Of a stretch of 64,000 nt of DNA, positions 5,702 through 12,329 are shown piece by piece. The position numbers were made by a program, and so were the translations under genes. Numbering within the stretch: the first letter of the stretch is position 1; each line of letters starts with the position of its first letter. The notes beneath the pieces were generated by a model. It saw nothing but the letters and a program-made list of their open reading frames with translations. It made no database searches and was not told the DNA's origin. This DNA comes from Gammaproteobacteria bacterium (lineage in GTDB: Bacteria > Pseudomonadota > Gammaproteobacteria > Xanthomonadales > SZUA-36), in NCBI GenBank assembly GCA_024279945.1, contig JAJRRA010000072.1, positions 1-64,000 on the forward strand, in the 5' to 3' direction.

Positions 5702-6301
5702 TCAGTGTATTGTGTTGTCATCGATATAATCTCCGAAGTCCCCGTTCGGCCGCAGGTCAGCACAGGAGTGTTGAAGCCAGCACTCGTTCGAACGACCGCC
5801 TTCTGCATTGCCGTGGATGACTTCCCGTGCGTCCTTTTTTACACCAAGGGCCAGGCAATTCTCGAGACTGAGTTTGCCAAAGTTGCATCCGTAGTCGACA
5901 CAGATAGCCTCGCTACGCCAACTCATAGGATACTCCGCGCCGCCGTAACACGAATAGGCGCCACGCTTCCCGTAGCCGGTGATGGGAGGGGGTGGCGGCG
6001 ACACTTCACCTGAGGGGCACCGGCTACCAGAAAAGACAAGACTGGCGTTGTAGTAGGAGCGAATGTACGTATAGCCGGGATTGGGCCAACTGTTTCCAGT
6101 TCGTCGTGCTTTGTCCGATACCATTTGCGTGCATTTTTCTGGATTCATGCCGCCCGGCGTCGAATTGCTGCACCAAGCGCCGATGATCGAATACCCCTGC
6201 GGCACCCGTGGCTTGGGTCCCTGGAATACGCTTGTCCAATTCAGTGTAATCTGCTCACTTGTTTTCGAGACCTCGCGCAGAATATAACGAATAAGGATAG
6301 A
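5702..6301 (-). pseudogene. 5'-truncated cysteine-rich protein gene of unknown function
   Basis: This frame is open for 199 codons from just inside a TGA at 6302-6304 and has no good initiation codon at its beginning. The translation is non-random: a hydrophilic start (ILREVSKTSEQITLNW), about ten cysteines, aromatic/glycine-rich segments and a PPPPP run, ending DYIDDNTIH. It looks like the C-terminal part of a secreted or surface protein with disulfides. The upstream part may continue in another frame (..LVQLQDKIVARFALSDLS..), which suggests a frameshift as well as truncation near the insertion element at 6379. I do not recognise the family. Confidence 0.45.
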
Positions 6302-6378
6302 TCACTGAGAGCGAAGCGAGCCACAATCTTATCCTGTAGTTGGACAAGCCCGTTCTTTATATAGAGCCTGCTCAGAAA

Positions 6379-6401
6379 GTAACTTCTCAATAACCCCGTG
6401 C
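6379..6401 (+). repeat. left terminal inverted repeat
   Basis: 23 bases, matching the reverse complement of 7363-7385 at 22 of 23 positions. Confidence 0.85.
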
Positions 6402-6454
6402 AAGCGGCATTCAGGACTGAACTCCCAAAGCTGAATGCCCTATAGTTGTGGCCC

Positions 6455-7360
6455 ATGGAACAGGGCACGATTCTTCAAGGGCGCACCGTCACGACCCAGG
6501 ACATTGAGTTTATCCGTCAACTGATAGCCGATCACCCCGCTTGGCATCGCACTCGGCTGTCCCAGGAACTGTGTCGCCAATGGGATTGGACCAACGCCAA
6601 GGGGGCGGCCAAGGACATGGCTGCCCGCGCGCTATTGCGCAAGCTCGATAGCCGCGGTCTGATCGCACTGCCCCCGCCGGTGCGTTCGGCCAACAATGCC
6701 TTCCGTCATCGTAACGCGGCGGCGATTGTCCTGGATCAGACACCCATTACCGGTAAGCTGGCGGAGCTGACACCGGTGCGGGTCCTGCCCGTGGCCAACG
6801 ACACTCACGCACAGCTGTTTCGGGGCCTGATCCACCATGGCTTTCCAGCGGAATTGGTGATCCTCAGTGATGATGCCGGGCAGTTTGATGTGTTCCTCCA
6901 TGCCAAAGCGCTGAATTGGGTCAGAGAACAGATCTGGGACCTCTACCACGATCTCAAACATTATCGGCAACATCCCAGTAAAGTCGAAAAACGGGAACTG
7001 TCCGCTCGCTTCGATGGAATCTGTCGCACGAAAATCGGCTTCCAAACCCTCAACCTGGCACTGCAACGACTGGCCAACAATAAAGCTGAGTTATTGTTGG
7101 TTCTGGAGCGGCCGGATATTCCCCTGCACAATAACCTCAGTGAACGGGATATCCGGGAATATGTCATTAAGCGAAAGATCAGCGGCAGTACCCGGTCTAA
7201 TGAGGGCCGGCGATGTCGCGATACCTTCGCCAGTTTGAAAAAGACCTGCAAAAAACAACGCATCCCCTTCTGGGATTACCTGCTCGATCGCGTCAGCCTT
7301 TCAAATACCATCCCCTACTTACCAGATATCATCCGCGGTACTGCTTCAATCACTACGTGA
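6455..7360 (+). CDS. chimeric transposase: DUF4338 (DruA-like) N-terminus joined to an IS66-like C-terminus
   Basis: 301 aa from ATG 6455. Residues 1 to about 130 (GRTVTTQDIEFIRQLIADHP.., KDMAARALLRKLDSRGLIALPPP, LTPVRVLPV) match my memory of the start of DUF4338 proteins. After LFRGLIHHG the sequence jumps to FPAELVILSDDAGQF and then to a typical IS66-like tail: VREQIWDLYHDLK, NKAELLLVL, HNNLSERDIREYVIKRKISGSTRSNEG, CRDTFASLKKTC. In full-length relatives the DUF4338 fold and the region carrying HALCWVHAER are much longer. At least two in-frame deletions therefore seem to have fused two proteins, or two domains, into one uninterrupted frame. Activity is uncertain because part of the DDE core is missing. 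Confidence 0.65.
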   Translation: MEQGTILQGRTVTTQDIEFIRQLIADHPAWHRTRLSQELCRQWDWTNAKGAAKDMAARALLRKLDSRGLIALPPPVRSANNAFRHRNAAAIVLDQTPITGKLAELTPVRVLPVANDTHAQLFRGLIHHGFPAELVILSDDAGQFDVFLHAKALNWVREQIWDLYHDLKHYRQHPSKVEKRELSARFDGICRTKIGFQTLNLALQRLANNKAELLLVLERPDIPLHNNLSERDIREYVIKRKISGSTRSNEGRRCRDTFASLKKTCKKQRIPFWDYLLDRVSLSNTIPYLPDIIRGTASITT

Positions 7361-7362
7361 GT

Positions 7363-7385
7363 GCACGGGGTGATTGAGAAGTTAC
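7363..7385 (-). repeat. right terminal inverted repeat
   Basis: 23 bases, inverted copy of 6379-6401 with one mismatch; begins 2 bases after the transposase stop. Confidence 0.85.
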
Positions 7386-7471
7386 GAAAGTGTAGCAGAA
7401 ATCACCGGAGTTTTCATCTCTTTGTAAGACATTTTCTTTATTTATTTCAATTGCTTATCGTTTATGGATGA

Positions 7472-7570
7472 ACACTACTCTACCAGATCATCCGTAAGTA
7501 CTGGCCCGAGTTTCAGGCCGAGCTGGCCAGCCAGAACAAGTACCTTCCTGCCTACATCACACAACAATTC
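7472..7570 (+). pseudogene. fragment of an IS91-family (Y2) transposase N-terminus
   Basis: The frame reads TLLYQIIRKYWPEFQAELAS followed by QNKYLPAYITQQF. This matches the start of IS91-type transposases, which typically have a hydrophobic helix, a W/Y-P-x-F motif and LPxYVxxEFE before the zinc-binding cysteines. The similarity stops after QQF, right where sequence shared with the IS110 fragment begins, so only about 33 codons survive. It has no start codon and no function. Confidence 0.5.
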
Positions 7571-7580
7571 AGGCTTGACA

Positions 7581-7808
7581 CTACATTAGGTCACGCTGCA
7601 GGCAATAGTCGATGTAGGATGCCTCGTAATACAGCTTGATTTTACGACCTTTAAAATGCCGTGCCATTCTGTCCCGTTGCTGTAACAGGCCTTTCAATGT
7701 GGGCCTGCATTTGAAATCAACGACTTCACCGGTATCTTTGTTGAATGCTGAGCCGTGGTACTGAGTATCATCGACATCCAGGCCGATGCGGACTATATTT
7801 TGTTTCAT
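7581..7808 (-). pseudogene. N-terminal fragment of an IS110-family transposase
   Basis: ATG at 7808 is preceded by GGAGGT at ideal spacing. The 75-aa product begins MKQNIVRIGLDVDDTQYHGS, the usual start of the IS110 DEDD domain with its first acidic residue, and ends at YIDYCLQRDLM. Full-length relatives continue for more than 200 residues beyond the LQRxL motif. The truncation point coincides with the end of the IS91-like fragment, so one element has cut the other. Confidence 0.7.
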
Positions 7809-7858
7809 AGACACCTCCATTTTTGCTTCATGGTTTGAGCTCAATAGCCTACCAATTT

Positions 7859-7886
7859 GAGGCATCCATCATTGATGGATGCCCTC
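7859..7886. repeat. short inverted repeat (GGCATCCATC-att-GATGGATGCC)
   Basis: A 10-bp perfect stem around ATT, extending two more pairs with a one-base bulge. It lies between the IS110 fragment start and the end of the ATP-grasp gene. It has no T-run, so it is not a clear terminator. It may be part of the subterminal region of the IS110 remnant or a protein site. Confidence 0.5.
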
Positions 7887-7956
7887 GGTTCAGCTAAGGT
7901 CGGGGGCGTCTACATCTTCTTGTATCTATACTCATTGACTCTGACCGTTCAGGAGA

Positions 7957-9228
7957 TCAACCTCTCTTGATCCCCAGCGTTTTCAATGACGCCTCAAGCA
8001 TGCGAAGATGCTCCACATTTTCGGCTAAGAGGATCACGGCAAAACTTCCGGTATCTGATAAATCTTCGCAGTTGAAGGGGAAAACGGAATTCAGTTTGCT
8101 GCCGTCGTAAAGAACTGAATCGATCTGTTTGTTCAATTCGCTAAAGGTGCAGGGGGCCGTCTTGATCTTGATAAATTCCCAGGCAGGAACAGGTCCCATC
8201 AATTCTTCAATGTTATGAACGATGAGGTTCACATAGGAAGAGCCATTGAAACGGGCATTATTCTCAACCGGGAAGATCCCTTCCTCTGCGACAATGTAAT
8301 CGAAACCGGTCAGCCCACAATATCCGGATGCCGCCATCGCGGTTATGATTTTCAGTGATGTCTGCTTGATGGCATCAAAAACTTGCGGTGCAGGGCCATC
8401 CCCCTTCAGGCTGCCGACGTGCACCATTCCTTCTTTGCAGATCTGTTCAAACATGCCGATATGGATGATTTTTCCATCCCGATCTACAACCCATTGGTCA
8501 TTCGGGCTGGAAGTGACATTCAGGAAGGGTTCAATGAGAACAACCTTTTCGCCGCTCTCGACAATAGTTTGGTACAGCCCGGCAAGGTCGTCGCCATTGG
8601 TCTTGTACAACGACATGCCAGCCTCACCCAGAGTACCGCGAATGATGACAGTGTCGTGGGTTGACAGATAACGCTCCACAAGGCTCTGCATCTGCTGAAA
8701 ATTGTCGTTCTTTTCCGGTTGCATGGTAAAGGCAACACCATCTACGACCGGCACCTTCAGTTCCTGACAAAAAGCCTTAAAGGTCGCCTTGTCATTATGT
8801 TTCAGGGTATCGGATGCTGTAGCACCGAAAAGATCAGCGCCAAGGGCTTCGGCTGCTGTGGCTTCCATTTGCGTCGAAAACCAGGGGGCGTAGACAGGTT
8901 TTCTACCCATCTCGCTGATTTTTCTTTGCACCGGTTGCGGATCGGCCACAATCAGTTCTGAGAGGGTCTTGCCGTTTGGCGGCATATTGTAGGCAACGAC
9001 ATGATCTGTTCCCAGACAGTGGGAGCGTAACCAGCGGTGATAGTCCTGGTCCAGTTTGCCTCGTAAGATCACCAAATCATCGGCACGTGCCGATGCCAGA
9101 GCGCGGTCAGATTTTGAAGTGACAGTGGCATCGCGACGAGAAAACTGGGAAAAGTGATCGGCAGCGTAAACGACCAGTTCGTCACTATTACCTGAAATAG
9201 CGGTTCTTATCGATTGAAAATCTGACAT
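7957..9228 (-). CDS. ATP-grasp ligase, last gene of a head-group-like operon
   Basis: 423 aa. ATG 9228 has GGAG seven bases upstream; a longer TTG start at 9243 is less likely. An N-terminal ~130-residue preATP-grasp region is followed by the ATP-grasp fold: HNDKATFKAFCQELKVPVVDG near 144, VIIRGTLGEAGMS near 195 (ATP lysine-equivalent region and glycine loop), and the metal-binding VENNARFNGSSY near 318. ATP-grasp enzymes join a carboxylate to an amine or similar nucleophile through an acyl-phosphate. Position downstream of a CDP-alcohol transferase and a PLP enzyme suggests it acylates an amino head group or builds its precursor. Substrate unknown. Confidence 0.75.
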   Translation of the reverse strand: MSDFQSIRTAISGNSDELVVYAADHFSQFSRRDATVTSKSDRALASARADDLVILRGKLDQDYHRWLRSHCLGTDHVVAYNMPPNGKTLSELIVADPQPVQRKISEMGRKPVYAPWFSTQMEATAAEALGADLFGATASDTLKHNDKATFKAFCQELKVPVVDGVAFTMQPEKNDNFQQMQSLVERYLSTHDTVIIRGTLGEAGMSLYKTNGDDLAGLYQTIVESGEKVVLIEPFLNVTSSPNDQWVVDRDGKIIHIGMFEQICKEGMVHVGSLKGDGPAPQVFDAIKQTSLKIITAMAASGYCGLTGFDYIVAEEGIFPVENNARFNGSSYVNLIVHNIEELMGPVPAWEFIKIKTAPCTFSELNKQIDSVLYDGSKLNSVFPFNCEDLSDTGSFAVILLAENVEHLRMLEASLKTLGIKRG

Positions 9229-9284
9229 TCTGGACTCCGGCAAGGGGGAATGGAAGTGGAGAAAGGTTACCGCTATCCTGCGGG

Positions 9285-9929
9285 TTAGAGCAATTTCCAG
9301 CCATAGAGCAGGGTCAGCATCAGCGTGTAAATGGTGATGGCGTAATACCAGCGTCCGGAAAATTTAGGGGTCTTGATCGGGGCGACGTTGAGGGCGGCTA
9401 GCACCATCAGCAGAGCGTAGAGAATCGGGCCGAAAACTGCAGAACTGACCAGCCCCTCAAAGAGGAACAAAAAGGCCAGGATAATGCCATTGTTGTCGAG
9501 GGCCAACCCCCAGTAGGTTGATTTATCCACCAGGCCGAAGACATTGAAATAGCTCAGCCGGATCACGCCGATTGCGACAATGACAAAAGCTCCGGGGATG
9601 TACCAGGGACTGAAGTTGCCATAGCTCAACAGGATAACAGCGGGGAAGATGCCGAAACTGACAATATCGATCAGTGAGTCGAGTTGAGCACCGAACTCTC
9701 CCTGCTCTGCGGTTCGACCTTTCATCTTGCGGGCGATAATGCCATCGCTCCAGTCAAAAAAGACCGCCCAGAGCAGGCCGATCATTGCCGCTGAGAAATT
9801 ACCCAGAAACGCGAAATAGATGCCGAGCACTGCACTAAGGAGGCCAGCCAGCGAGCAGATGTTCGGCAGGTCCTTCGCATAGTAAAGTATGGCCCTGGGA
9901 GTCGCAGGGTTATCCGGTGACGCACTCAT
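9285..9929 (-). CDS. CDP-alcohol phosphatidyltransferase family membrane protein
   Basis: 214 aa with about six membrane segments. The family signature is complete: D59-x2-D62-G-x2-A-R67, then G80-x3-D84-x3-D88 (DWSDGIIARK ... GAQLDSLID). The spacer between R67 and G80 is 12 residues rather than the usual 8. The four aspartates bind metal and catalyse transfer of a phospho-alcohol with release of CMP. Its ATG overlaps the stop of the aminotransferase gene (ATGA), so the two are translationally coupled. A canonical pssA is elsewhere (32184), so this copy probably uses a different alcohol, most simply the product of the neighbouring cytidylyltransferase. Confidence 0.85.
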   Translation of the reverse strand: MSASPDNPATPRAILYYAKDLPNICSLAGLLSAVLGIYFAFLGNFSAAMIGLLWAVFFDWSDGIIARKMKGRTAEQGEFGAQLDSLIDIVSFGIFPAVILLSYGNFSPWYIPGAFVIVAIGVIRLSYFNVFGLVDKSTYWGLALDNNGIILAFLFLFEGLVSSAVFGPILYALLMVLAALNVAPIKTPKFSGRWYYAITIYTLMLTLLYGWKLL

Positions 9930-11038
9930 GATATTTTTTTCAAACCAACAATTGTGGTCAGGGCCTCGGTCACGACTCTGTTTTCGGTCTTGGTGCGGCT
10001 GGCAATGCGGATGTAACGATCGGATTCAGACATGGTCTTACCCTGACAGTGCTTGATGTAGATATTGTGCTCGACGAACAGTCTGCGTGCTACTTCGGGA
10101 CCGGCAGGAGCATGGTCAGGAAGCCGGCAGAAGATATAGTTGGCGTCAGGCCGATAGACCTTCAGTCCGCTGATGGTACAGAGGTCCTGATAGAATTGAT
10201 CACGATCCGCCCGGACCTGATCGCAACTGGCGAGGAACTCCTGCTTGTATTCAGGGGCATGAACCAGCAAGGTTTCAGCAAATCCGTTGAGGTTCCAGAT
10301 ATGCAGCCCCTGACGAACCTGCTCAGCAAATTGCGCGTTGGCCGTCAGCATATAGCCGATGCGTAGACCGCAGATACCGTAAGCCTTGCTCATGCTCTTG
10401 AATATCGCAAGATTCGGATAGCTGGCGATGTCCTGCTCCAGACTTGCCCCGCCAAAATTCTCAGCAAAATCGATGAAGGATTCATCGATAATGAGCCTGC
10501 AGTTGTGTGCGGAGAGTTTGTCCAGCAGCCGGATCAAGTCGGCCTTCGGCACCAGCAGAGACGTCGGATTATTCGGTGACACCACCACCGCAACGTCGGC
10601 CTGACAACGGAGCGCCTCTGCCGCAAATTTATCCACGTCCAGTTGGAAAGAAGGGGCATCGAGCGCGAACTCGTTGATATTTTCCGTCGGTGCCGCGTTG
10701 GCGTATTCGTTGAACGACGGGACCGGGACAATCAGTTTTTTGGCGAGGTGGCCGGAAACGATCTTGATCAGTTCTGCCGCCCCGTTGCCCACCACAATCC
10801 ACTGTGGCGGTTGATTGATCAGTTTGCCCACCAACTCGGCCAGAACATCCTGAGCCACGGGATAGTTCAGCACCAGTTCATGGATTTGACTGGTCAGCTG
10901 CTTAAAAAAACGCTCGGGTGGAAAATAGAGATTATACAGGTAGGCGTGGTCGATAAAATCATGACGCCAATAGCCGCCGTGCTGGCGTTCAATTGCCTTA
11001 AATTGCTGCTCTCTGGCAGCACTATTCCGACCTGTCAT
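9926..11038 (-). CDS. class I/II PLP-dependent enzyme, HisC/CobD-like
   Basis: 370 aa, fold-type I aminotransferase. Visible PLP residues: SPNNPTS near 153 (Asn), DESFIDF near 185 (Asp pairing with the pyridine N), SMSKAYGICGLRIGY near 215 (Schiff-base lysine), and RIASRT near the C-terminus (carboxylate Arg). HGGYW near residue 20 recalls the HGG of CobD-type threonine-phosphate decarboxylases. The fold serves both histidinol-phosphate transamination and decarboxylation of phosphorylated amino acids. No his or cob genes are nearby. Next to a cytidylyltransferase and a CDP-alcohol transferase, production of an amino-alcohol phosphate is the more economical guess, but that is inference. Confidence 0.8.
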   Translation of the reverse strand: MTGRNSAAREQQFKAIERQHGGYWRHDFIDHAYLYNLYFPPERFFKQLTSQIHELVLNYPVAQDVLAELVGKLINQPPQWIVVGNGAAELIKIVSGHLAKKLIVPVPSFNEYANAAPTENINEFALDAPSFQLDVDKFAAEALRCQADVAVVVSPNNPTSLLVPKADLIRLLDKLSAHNCRLIIDESFIDFAENFGGASLEQDIASYPNLAIFKSMSKAYGICGLRIGYMLTANAQFAEQVRQGLHIWNLNGFAETLLVHAPEYKQEFLASCDQVRADRDQFYQDLCTISGLKVYRPDANYIFCRLPDHAPAGPEVARRLFVEHNIYIKHCQGKTMSESDRYIRIASRTKTENRVVTEALTTIVGLKKIS

Positions 11039-11108
11039 TTATTTTGTTGCCTTCGTTAAACGCTATCAGAAACGGATCGACCAAATTCTCTGTCCGTAGT
11101 TGAGCGGA

Positions 11109-12011
11109 TCAATCAGAGGTAGCTAAGGGTAAGAAGGGTGGTGTCGAATTTTTACGGATAACGGTATTTTTTATCTCGGCCATATTGCGAACGGCAATCG
11201 GGGCAATCTTTTGAACCAGAGGTTGAAGTTGCTGCGTGGCAACCTTGAGCGGGGAAGGCCTGGGGAACATCTTCTCAGCCGCGCTCAGGTCCTCAAGGGT
11301 GTCGATCTCATACCAGCAGTCCGTATCAAAGAAGACCGGGGAAAATGTGAGATTCTCCTCAGCGACCAACTCGGCGAAAACAGTCTCGTAGTATCCCTTC
11401 ACCTTCTGGGCGGTAATATGTCGATCCAGTCGCTCCCAGATCGATCGCCAGGTACTGCGGGAAAAGCTGTAGATGTTTACGGTCTTGAAATGGCTGGCCT
11501 CAGTGCGATTTACGGCGCCAAGCCAAAAAGCATCGAGTTGTTGTTGCTCATTGAGCGTTACCGTCGTGCCGTTCATCCATGGCAACCGCCTGGAGACGGC
11601 GATTCGGTCAGGCAGGAGCATCGGCTTGAGCAGTTTAGGTTGAAACACCAGATCGCTTTCAACCAGGAGGAAAGGTTCGTCGATCATCTTTCCGGCTAGC
11701 CACAACGAGTAGATGTTGTTGGTTGTTTTATATCGCGGACTGGCGATATATTCGATTTCAATATCGGCATAGCGGCTGCCGAGATAATTATGAATAACCT
11801 CCGACAGATGTCCGACGACTACCACCAGGCGTTTGAATCCGTGATAGCGCAGGGAGCGGACCAACCGTTCAAGGATGGGGATTCCATTGACCTCAACAAG
11901 ACATTTGGGTGTTGAATCCGTTAGTGGAGAGAGTCGACTCCCCGTACCGGCGGCCAATAACAAGGCGGTTTTCACCGGGGTACCATCATCTGAAAGGTCG
12001 CTATAATGCAT
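11109..12011 (-). CDS. nucleotidyltransferase, LicC-like (CTP:phospho-alcohol cytidylyltransferase type)
   Basis: 300 aa. ATG 12011 has GGAG seven bases upstream. The N-terminus has the sugar-nucleotidyltransferase signature LLAAGTGSRLSPLTDSTPKCL near residue 18, then TNNIYSLWLA near 98, a segment typical of LicC-like phosphocholine cytidylyltransferases, and VESDLVF near 118 with the metal aspartate. Residues after about 240 form a tail not found in short relatives. It would activate a phospho-alcohol as its CDP (or sugar as NDP) derivative for the downstream CDP-alcohol transferase. First gene of the operon 12011 to 7957; the gap to the next gene is 70 bases. Confidence 0.78.
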   Translation of the reverse strand: MHYSDLSDDGTPVKTALLLAAGTGSRLSPLTDSTPKCLVEVNGIPILERLVRSLRYHGFKRLVVVVGHLSEVIHNYLGSRYADIEIEYIASPRYKTTNNIYSLWLAGKMIDEPFLLVESDLVFQPKLLKPMLLPDRIAVSRRLPWMNGTTVTLNEQQQLDAFWLGAVNRTEASHFKTVNIYSFSRSTWRSIWERLDRHITAQKVKGYYETVFAELVAEENLTFSPVFFDTDCWYEIDTLEDLSAAEKMFPRPSPLKVATQQLQPLVQKIAPIAVRNMAEIKNTVIRKNSTPPFLPLATSD

Positions 12012-12329
12012 TAACACTCCTGCAATTGCCTGTAGTAAACAGGGGAAGGGGGCATGCCTTAGTGGAGCAACCGGCACTTTTGCTCAGGCAAAAAAAGCAA
12101 TCTACATCACGCGGGCAGGCTAAGAAACTGCACCAATACGAGCACGAGATTGAGCCCGTGCGGTGCAAGGGGGAAGTATTTTTTTGTGACAGGGATCATT
12201 GCCATCGGAGAATGTCCGCCCAATGCTCCGCAACGACAAAAACTAACAGAGCAGTATGTGATATTTACCTGCTGAAGTCAATAGTGAATGCAAATTGCAA
12301 ATGCACCACGTTCTACAGGCCAGGACACT
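12012..12329. other. leader region of the head-group operon
   Basis: No gene is seen. A sigma-70-like promoter on the minus strand lies at 12253-12281, leaving an untranslated leader of about 240 bases before the ATG at 12011. I could not identify a riboswitch or terminator in it. Confidence 0.4.
12253..12281 (-). promoter_or_regulatory. candidate sigma-70 promoter for the head-group operon
   Basis: On the minus strand TTGACT (12281-12276) is followed after exactly 17 bases by CATACT (12258-12253). The -35 matches consensus at five of six bases, the -10 at four of six. It points toward the cytidylyltransferase-like gene. Confidence 0.4.

Follow-up and report, generated by a model that had tools for sequence, protein, structure and literature searches.

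Association of DruA-type domains with DDE transposases of several kinds and a putative deletion derivative of an IS66-type transposon

DruA is part of an anti-phage system, and Mom of phage Mu is an adenine modification enzyme with a GNAT fold. Two reports give the Druantia type I operon as druABCDE (PMC13316683; PMC7251935). The domain of DruA is DUF4338, which another paper calls a GNAT domain and describes as fused to some DndF proteins (PMC10853773). Among mobile elements, ISDge4, a member of the ISBst12 group of the IS66 family, has the ends GTAACTGCTCAGCA and GTGACTACTCAGCA, an 8-bp repeat and one ORF (PMC12898284), and the name tIS66 is given to IS66 elements that carry a passenger, such as fosZ in ISPa75 (PMC12888890). 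The literature searched, as far as its text was accessible, names no activity for DruA and holds no link between DUF4338 and transposons (most subscription papers and ISfinder lay outside this search), and no paper in it joins DruA with "insertion sequence," with Mom, or with ISAs1 and transposase.

The element considered here lies in a window of 64,000 nucleotides (the whole stretch of DNA that was analysed), and its features are collected in Table 1; other loci are denoted by L and a number. Like the ISBst12 group, the group of elements to which it belongs has a DDE_Tnp_IS66 domain, the same type of ends (the terminal inverted repeats, or TIRs, of the window element start with GTAA, as in the IS66 family and the ISBst12 group) and an 8-bp target duplication (at L002, L005, and L095). 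Unlike ISDge4 with its one ORF, full-length relatives have an added DruA-type gene, located before the transposase gene in L002-L005 and after it in L008 and L009 (Accumulibacter), and unlike ISBst12 members, the window copy appears deleted and has a flank repeat of only 4 bp. The tIS66 elements resemble L002-L005 in the presence of an extra gene between IS66 ends; however, their cargo is a resistance gene, whereas here it is a DruA-type GNAT. In contrast to the DruA of Druantia type I, the DruA-type proteins of these six loci sit with a transposase; within L002-L005, profiles find only the DruA-type gene and the transposase gene between the TIRs, and the druABCDE operon is not present.

Table 1. 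Features of the window element and of its chimeric protein (positions in the window).
Feature	Position	Strand	Length	Basis or remark
Element	6379-7385		1,007 bp	Inverted ends and one intact frame
Left TIR (GTAA... end)	6379-6402	+		Pairs 23/24 with right end
Right TIR	7362-7385	-		Pairs 23/24 with left end
Left flanking GAAA	6375-6378			Same as right flank over 4 bp only
Right flanking GAAA	7386-7389			Right flanks of L002 and L004 also start GAAA
Chimeric gene	6455-7360	+	301 aa	From ATG, plus stop; no internal stop
Residues 1-124: DruA-type N-terminal helical domain and very start of GNAT core, up to LFRG	6455-6826	+		61% to L002/L003 ORF1
Deletion junction 1, DruA-type gene to transposase gene	6824-6829	+		DNA similarity to L003 transposase gene begins at 6827
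Transposase segment 1, with SDDAGQF motif (presumed second catalytic Asp)	6827-6904	+		Alignment, profiles
Deletion junction 2	6899-6904	+		Loss of 63 bp (21 codons) bounded by a pair of CAYGCN repeats that code for HA
Transposase segment 2, C-terminal part with NNLSERDIREYV (presumed catalytic Glu)	6905-7357	+		Pfam, profiles, alignment

The initial annotation had described near-perfect inverted ends, which are borne out (24 bp, 23/24), and a single frame with a DUF4338 start and an IS66-like end. Profiles do match both parts of this frame, but the first part mostly precedes the DUF4338 core. A DruA-type profile made from the proteins of six relatives matches window residues 1-128 (E 1.4e-49), and a transposase profile made from eleven relatives matches residues ~78-150 (E 4e-10) and ~149-297 (E 1e-72), the locus frame being numbered 3 higher than the window protein. 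DDE_Tnp_IS66 is the only Pfam family above its cutoff (residues 166-251, 41.8 bits vs. 23.1) and the match spans positions 196-281 of the 284 in the profile, its C-terminal part only, while the NCBIfam model of full-length IS66 transposases remains below its cutoff (73.1 vs. 180). Neither the Pfam DruA model nor PADLOC has a match in the window protein, because the surviving 124 residues mostly lie before the region covered by the DruA model. In the frames of L002, L003 and L005, the Pfam DruA match begins at residues 112, 114 and 79, respectively, which corresponds to ~65-97 in the window protein. Of the named domain, the window copy thus retains just the beginning, in addition to the N-terminal domain. 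The motifs SDDAGQF and NNLSERD are kept and the VDDTG region is missing, so the DDE triad, as presumed from these motifs, is incomplete. An in-frame TTG start is present at 6446, ahead of the ATG. In the AF2 model of the chimera (pTM 0.35), the N-terminal domain is confident (residues 11-70, pLDDT 85-94 by block), as are helices at 150-191 and 249-280, whereas pLDDT falls below 50 in an unstructured middle (77-149) and at 226-248, and the whole model has no Foldseek match at E<=0.001. That the N-terminal domain could be a winged helix is a guess. The GAAA noted earlier on both sides is present, but it was rejected as a true target duplication, as its 4 bp are the wrong length for a family with 8-bp duplications and as the right flanks of L002 and L004 also begin with GAAA.

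Six short peptide patterns, run against genome contigs, yielded 32 loci encoding relatives, and in six of these (L002-L005, L008, and L009) a DruA-type gene adjoins the transposase gene, always as a separate frame, with several of the remaining 26 loci being cut by contig ends. The TIRs of all six are those of the window element with 1-3 mismatches at both ends, and the full-length elements measure 2,576-2,648 bp (2,576-2,647 bp in L002-L005) vs. 1,007 bp in the window. The earlier proposal that DUF4338 proteins travel in transposons thus holds: L002-L005 carry their DruA-type gene between TIRs, and full-length elements with the same ends do exist, with the two proteins encoded by separate neighbouring genes. 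In L002-L005, the DruA-type protein has ~300 aa and the IS66-type transposase ~510-555 aa. The Pfam DruA model is called in all five accessory genes scanned (L002, L003, L005, L008, and L009), with E values of 2e-33 to 4e-41 for L002, L003, L005, and L008, and the matches run from model positions 3-49 to 221-226 of 297; to PADLOC DruA1 the relatives' proteins match weakly (E 2e-6 to 5e-3, vs. 1e-92 to 1e-196 for three full-length DruA). Perfect 8-bp target duplications flank L002 and L005, a duplication of 8 bp is also present at L095 and one of 7 bp at L015, and none was found at L004, L009, L022, and L026. Members of the group with a transposase only are 1.6-1.9 kb long (1,741 bp in L095), some of them with broken frames.

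Two smaller elements were observed alongside these relatives. At L002, a miniature element of ~100 bp with related ends (1962-2061) abuts the full-length element, and the 8 bases that follow it, GAAAATGT, are those duplicated around the full-length L002 element. Another shortened copy, at L023 (54-1115), has lost internal sequence at two points without a change of frame and is interrupted by one in-frame stop, with frames at 54-665 and 669-1115. A script found four internal gaps in copies of the group, of which three preserve the frame (two in L023 and one in L025) and one, in L031, changes it; in this list, which is incomplete since the script missed the known gap of the window copy itself, in-frame gaps may be commoner than expected by chance.

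The count of copies and of flanking duplications gives a single copy of the window element in its genome (97% complete), and no 8-bp duplication at this copy. No other match to an IS66-type transposase, no DruA (PF14236) match, no other pair of such TIRs and no full-length relative able to supply transposase were found in this genome; the assembly consists of 91 contigs, so that full-length copies may have been collapsed. The TIR pattern was found in 0 of 60 other relatives and 0 of the 397 other genomes of the phylum sample, in which only the window's own genome matched, and it had no match in viral contigs. The DruA-type protein pattern likewise had no match in viral contigs, a further protein scan of these contigs gave 10 pattern matches with no relative among them, and the DruA-type protein of L005 found nothing in phages at E 1e-5. 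Two DruA-type proteins searched in plasmids both led to the same two records, both from Candidatus Thiodictyon syntrophicum. In the class sample, partial protein matches are present in 24 of 273 other genomes, and the DruA-type and transposase profiles found the chimera in 0 of the 29 loci fetched from it. A second instance of the window derivative was thus found in none of the relatives and the phylum, class and viral samples searched.

We consider it very probable that the window element is non-autonomous and derives, by internal deletion, from a transposon of IS66 type (ISBst12-like) with a length of ~2.6 kb and two genes, a DruA-type gene followed by the transposase gene. Compared with L002-L005, the window protein consists of 124 DruA-type residues followed by 26 and then 151 residues of transposase, and since the two genes are separate in the full-length relatives, the window gene is best read as a deletion fusion. 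The compact derivative had previously been ascribed to an in-frame deletion with joins after LFRGLIHHG and VFLHAK; the joins are real but lie a few residues away (LFRG|LIHHG, placed at 6826/6827, and FLHA|K), and two deletions, not one, are required. At junction 1, ~1.58 kb is missing relative to L002 (2,647 - 1,007 - 63 bp), and this junction cannot be fixed to the base because the nearest full-length relatives are only ~60% identical. At junction 2, the direct repeats read CATGCG and CACGCC in L002 and CATGCC in the window. The window copy has lost almost the whole Pfam DruA region and, on the transposase side, the N-terminal two thirds, the CWxHAER stretch and VDDTG with its presumed first catalytic Asp; with these transposase parts gone, the product is presumably not an active transposase and the element non-autonomous. 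In the proposed derivation, a parent element would have held a DruA-type gene and then a transposase gene between the same TIRs, one deletion of ~1.6 kb would have fused the DruA-type protein at residue ~124 with the final third of the transposase, and another would have removed the 21 codons between the HA-coding repeats; the resulting copy would be movable only if a full-length relative provided transposase in trans. Lacking the 8-bp target duplication, the window copy is filed as a deletion derivative and not as an intact ISBst12 member, and may not itself have transposed.

A chimera could also have arisen by recombination of two elements, with the DruA end of one joined to the transposase end of the other. 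The missing 8-bp duplication would be expected for ends that stem from different insertions, a point of little weight as the full-length L004 and L009 are also without it. On the other hand, both halves rank the four relatives with a leading DruA-type gene in nearly the same order: the N-terminal part is 61% identical to L002, 61% to L003, 52% to L005 and 49% to L004, and the transposase part 63, 59, 56, and 49%, respectively. Both halves being nearest to L002/L003 and then to L005/L004 is what deletion within one parental element predicts; moreover, the two parts follow each other as the genes do in L002-L005, and the loss of 63 bp at junction 2 calls for an internal event anyway, all of which makes recombination improbable. 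The closest transposase matches are fragments (L027, 90% over 40 aa; L023, 76% over 80 aa at a contig end), with no DruA gene visible alongside either. A random assembly error was ruled out by the pairing of the ends and by both joins being in frame.

The intact frame of 301 codons and the in-frame joins are not required by pure decay and count against the deletion-derivative reading. They would rather suit a retained working protein, in which the DruA-type N-terminal domain and the C-terminus of the transposase would bind the ends and act to repress transposition or transcription, and its confidently modelled N-terminal domain and the in-frame gaps of other copies point the same way. Against this stand the single copy without a conserved second instance, the in-frame stop in the other shortened copy (L023), and the poorly modelled middle together with the lack of a Foldseek match for the whole model, and we rate such a function as unlikely. 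One continuous frame with clean ends would also suit an ordinary family of small transposases (~300 aa) built in this way, the outcome that the initial annotation had named as contrary to its view; two profiles find a frame joining the DruA-type and transposase parts in 0 of the 32 loci, and the DruA-type gene is separate in 6 of 6 (several other loci being cut by contig ends), which leaves such a family with hardly any probability. As a deletion derivative, the window element is itself an ordinary relic, and the wider association of DruA with DDE transposases is the more interesting result.

This association was surveyed with PF14236, which has matches at 28 places in 14 of 252 genomes of the window's class and at 41 places in 25 of 198 genomes of the phylum of L005. 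The surroundings of 67 of these 69 places (which are matches, not genes, L201 and L109 being counted twice) were fetched, searched for transposases on the same strand with 12-14 queries and classed by script. The DruA-type domain is fused in frame to a transposase at 14 of the 69 places, and at another 20 a transposase lies on the same strand within 1.5 kb, after removal from the script's 22 of L181 and L185, which match only a self-derived query without a confirmed transposase domain and were left unassigned. Eight places are at contig ends and 16 are without a transposase found. Full-length DruA by profile span occupies 7 of the 69 places, none with such a transposase nearby; three of these seven, run through PADLOC, match DruA1 (E 1e-92 to 1e-196), and four scanned neighbours of the PADLOC-checked proteins are of HerA type or have no match, and are not Druantia. 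For comparison, the same loci contain 84 other open frames (not genes) of at least 250 aa, and 5 of these control frames have such a transposase within 1.5 kb.

The partners belong to several Pfam families (viz. DDE_Tnp_IS66 in L097, L100, L107, L172, L182, L183, L189, and L215; DDE_Tnp_1_assoc and DDE_Tnp_1, annotated as ISAs1 in a plasmid record, in L066 and L092/L101; Tnp_DNA_bind, DDE_Tnp_1, and Dimer_Tnp_Tn5 in L104; DDE_5 in L180, L190, and L213; and DUF4277 in L191), and the partner in L098 is below the Pfam cutoff (17 vs. 23 bits). DUF4277 we take to be a transposase domain. At least four kinds of DDE transposase (IS66, ISAs1, Tn5-like, and DDE_5), and probably a fifth, therefore have DruA-type domains fused to them or encoded next to them. 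In L105, L106, L203, L108, L101, L066, L104, L180, L190, L191, L218, and L219, DruA is N-terminal to an ISAs1, Tn5-like, DDE_5 or DUF4277 protein. We found no earlier report, in the literature searched, of the DruA domain in several unrelated kinds of DDE transposons, and a bare DUF4338 match can accordingly be a transposon gene and not a defence system.

DruA and transposase move together as one unit. Three sites of one genome (L105, L106, and L203) are occupied by DruA-ISAs1 units (1.93 kb, 98-99.7% identity), which are flanked by 10-bp repeats at L105 and L106 but not at L203; a second set (L108, L204, and L205) is 97-99% identical, and L108 and L204, but not L205, have 10-bp repeats. A 2.4-kb DruA-Tn5-like unit is common to L218 and L219 (93%). 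L100 is an IS66 element that encloses a DruA-type gene within its ends and is flanked by a perfect duplication of 8 bp, and the ends of L097 pair 27/27. Since IS66 elements are known to carry passengers (tIS66), the DruA-type protein could be mere cargo where it is a separate gene. The in-frame fusions, however, point to more than cargo, and as DruA-type GNATs are joined elsewhere to other DDE transposases, the part of an accessory seems to suit this protein better than that of a chance passenger. DruA is nevertheless not a fixed part of such transposases: 698 plasmid records match the Tn5-like fusion L104, 0 of them cover 80% of it, and among the matches listed (the best 15 of 698) only its transposase part is matched.

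In a tree of 53 DruA cores, the Tn5-like fusions form one clade (8 rows, 98/90), as do the DDE_5 fusions (3 rows, 99/95). Elements that share the ends of the window element have their DruA genes in two separate places with starred branches between them (L002-L005, 100/96, and L008/L009), so the partner has changed at least twice among these elements; with L189 added, the group of seven needs at least three partner changes (3 in the 5-95% bootstrap range), L189 being ISBst12-like by profile only, with a left end 8 mismatches off and a right end not found on the contig. The rows of L197 and L204, labelled NA, sit among the ISAs1 fusions and inflate the number of ISAs1 changes. Capture, loss and swap could each account for a change of partner.

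Other arrangements were seen at some of these loci. In the DruA fusions of L105, L106, L203, L108, L195, L196, L204, L219, L066, and L192, the ISAs1 part is divided between two frames that overlap, and the second frame is shifted by -1 in 8 of these 10 loci and by +1 in L066 and L192; the -1 overlaps suggest, from the arrangement of the frames, that programmed frameshifting may take place. In L219 (4557-8745), a DruA-ISAs1 element is divided in two by a DruA-Tn5-like element (5949-8240) located within it. In L065 (5339-11324), on a Thiodictyon plasmid, a DUF4338 gene, an integrase/IS91 pair and an IS4-type transposase stand between two pieces of a DUF2235 gene, an arrangement that looks like a single gene split by insertions nested in one another. 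In L172 (1831-5260), two divergent DruA-type genes stand back to back, with an IS66-type transposase after one of them.

An AF2 model of the intact DruA-type protein (A1, six sequences) has a pLDDT of 72.5 and a pTM of 0.68, with three confident helices at residues 13-65 and, from ~residue 104, a core with a GNAT fold, as seen with Foldseek and with VIA-align (Z up to 10.7, a comparison that bears mostly on the residues after 103). At E<=0.001, Foldseek gives 39 PDB matches for this model, 36 of them described as acetyltransferases, and this reading of the core agrees with DUF4338 being called a GNAT domain in PMC10853773. A comparison of profiles from 13 DruA-type proteins and 6 Mom or Mom-like proteins gave a probability of 96.6 (E 5e-10, 165 core columns), and the Mom profile against the alignment of the window and transposase proteins, the one negative control on which this comparison rests, gave 0.1; Mom is the only GNAT profile that was compared. 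HHYLGY aligns with KHYSRR and ETFVEQDRF-AGTCYRADNW with a stretch of Mom, so that HY and (T/S)F(V/A)(E/D)...GxxYxAxN motifs are common to Mu Mom and the DruA-type proteins. The Mom structure 8bv8 aligns with the DruA-type model at Z 10.3 (rmsd 3.8, 160 residues aligned), tied with many other GNATs, so the fold alone is not specific to Mom. Assignment to the Mom family (PF25680) was rejected, as the best score is 22.6 bits vs. a cutoff of 27.1 and the proteins are related by profile only.

We infer that the DruA-type protein may act on DNA and help the element, by protection from restriction or in a step of transposition, and the likeliest role, as a guess, is that in intact elements it modifies DNA or else a protein, either at the element itself or at the target. 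The 16 places where a DruA-type gene has no recognised transposase beside it argue against such help. It is conceivable, though doubtful at present, that DruA-type domains are Mom-like DNA-modifying GNATs recruited, by fusion or as a neighbouring gene, by at least four and probably five unrelated kinds of DDE transposases, and that they protect or mark the transposon DNA as Mom does for Mu; that Druantia took its DruA from the same pool; and that the window element is the relic of one such transposon. The association with transposons and the profile link to Mom pose a concrete question, namely whether these proteins modify DNA and affect transposition or restriction.

In the DNA to the right of the window element, remnants resembling IS91 and IS110 were recognised by eye at 7480-7865, where a frame of 94 aa (7581-7865) has no Pfam match at 1e-3. 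Beyond them, on the minus strand (7957-12077), are four genes for an ATP-grasp-like protein, a CDP-alcohol phosphatidyltransferase, an aminotransferase and a MobA-like nucleotidyltransferase, a cluster that presumably, as a guess, belongs to a head-group or phosphonate-type lipid pathway.
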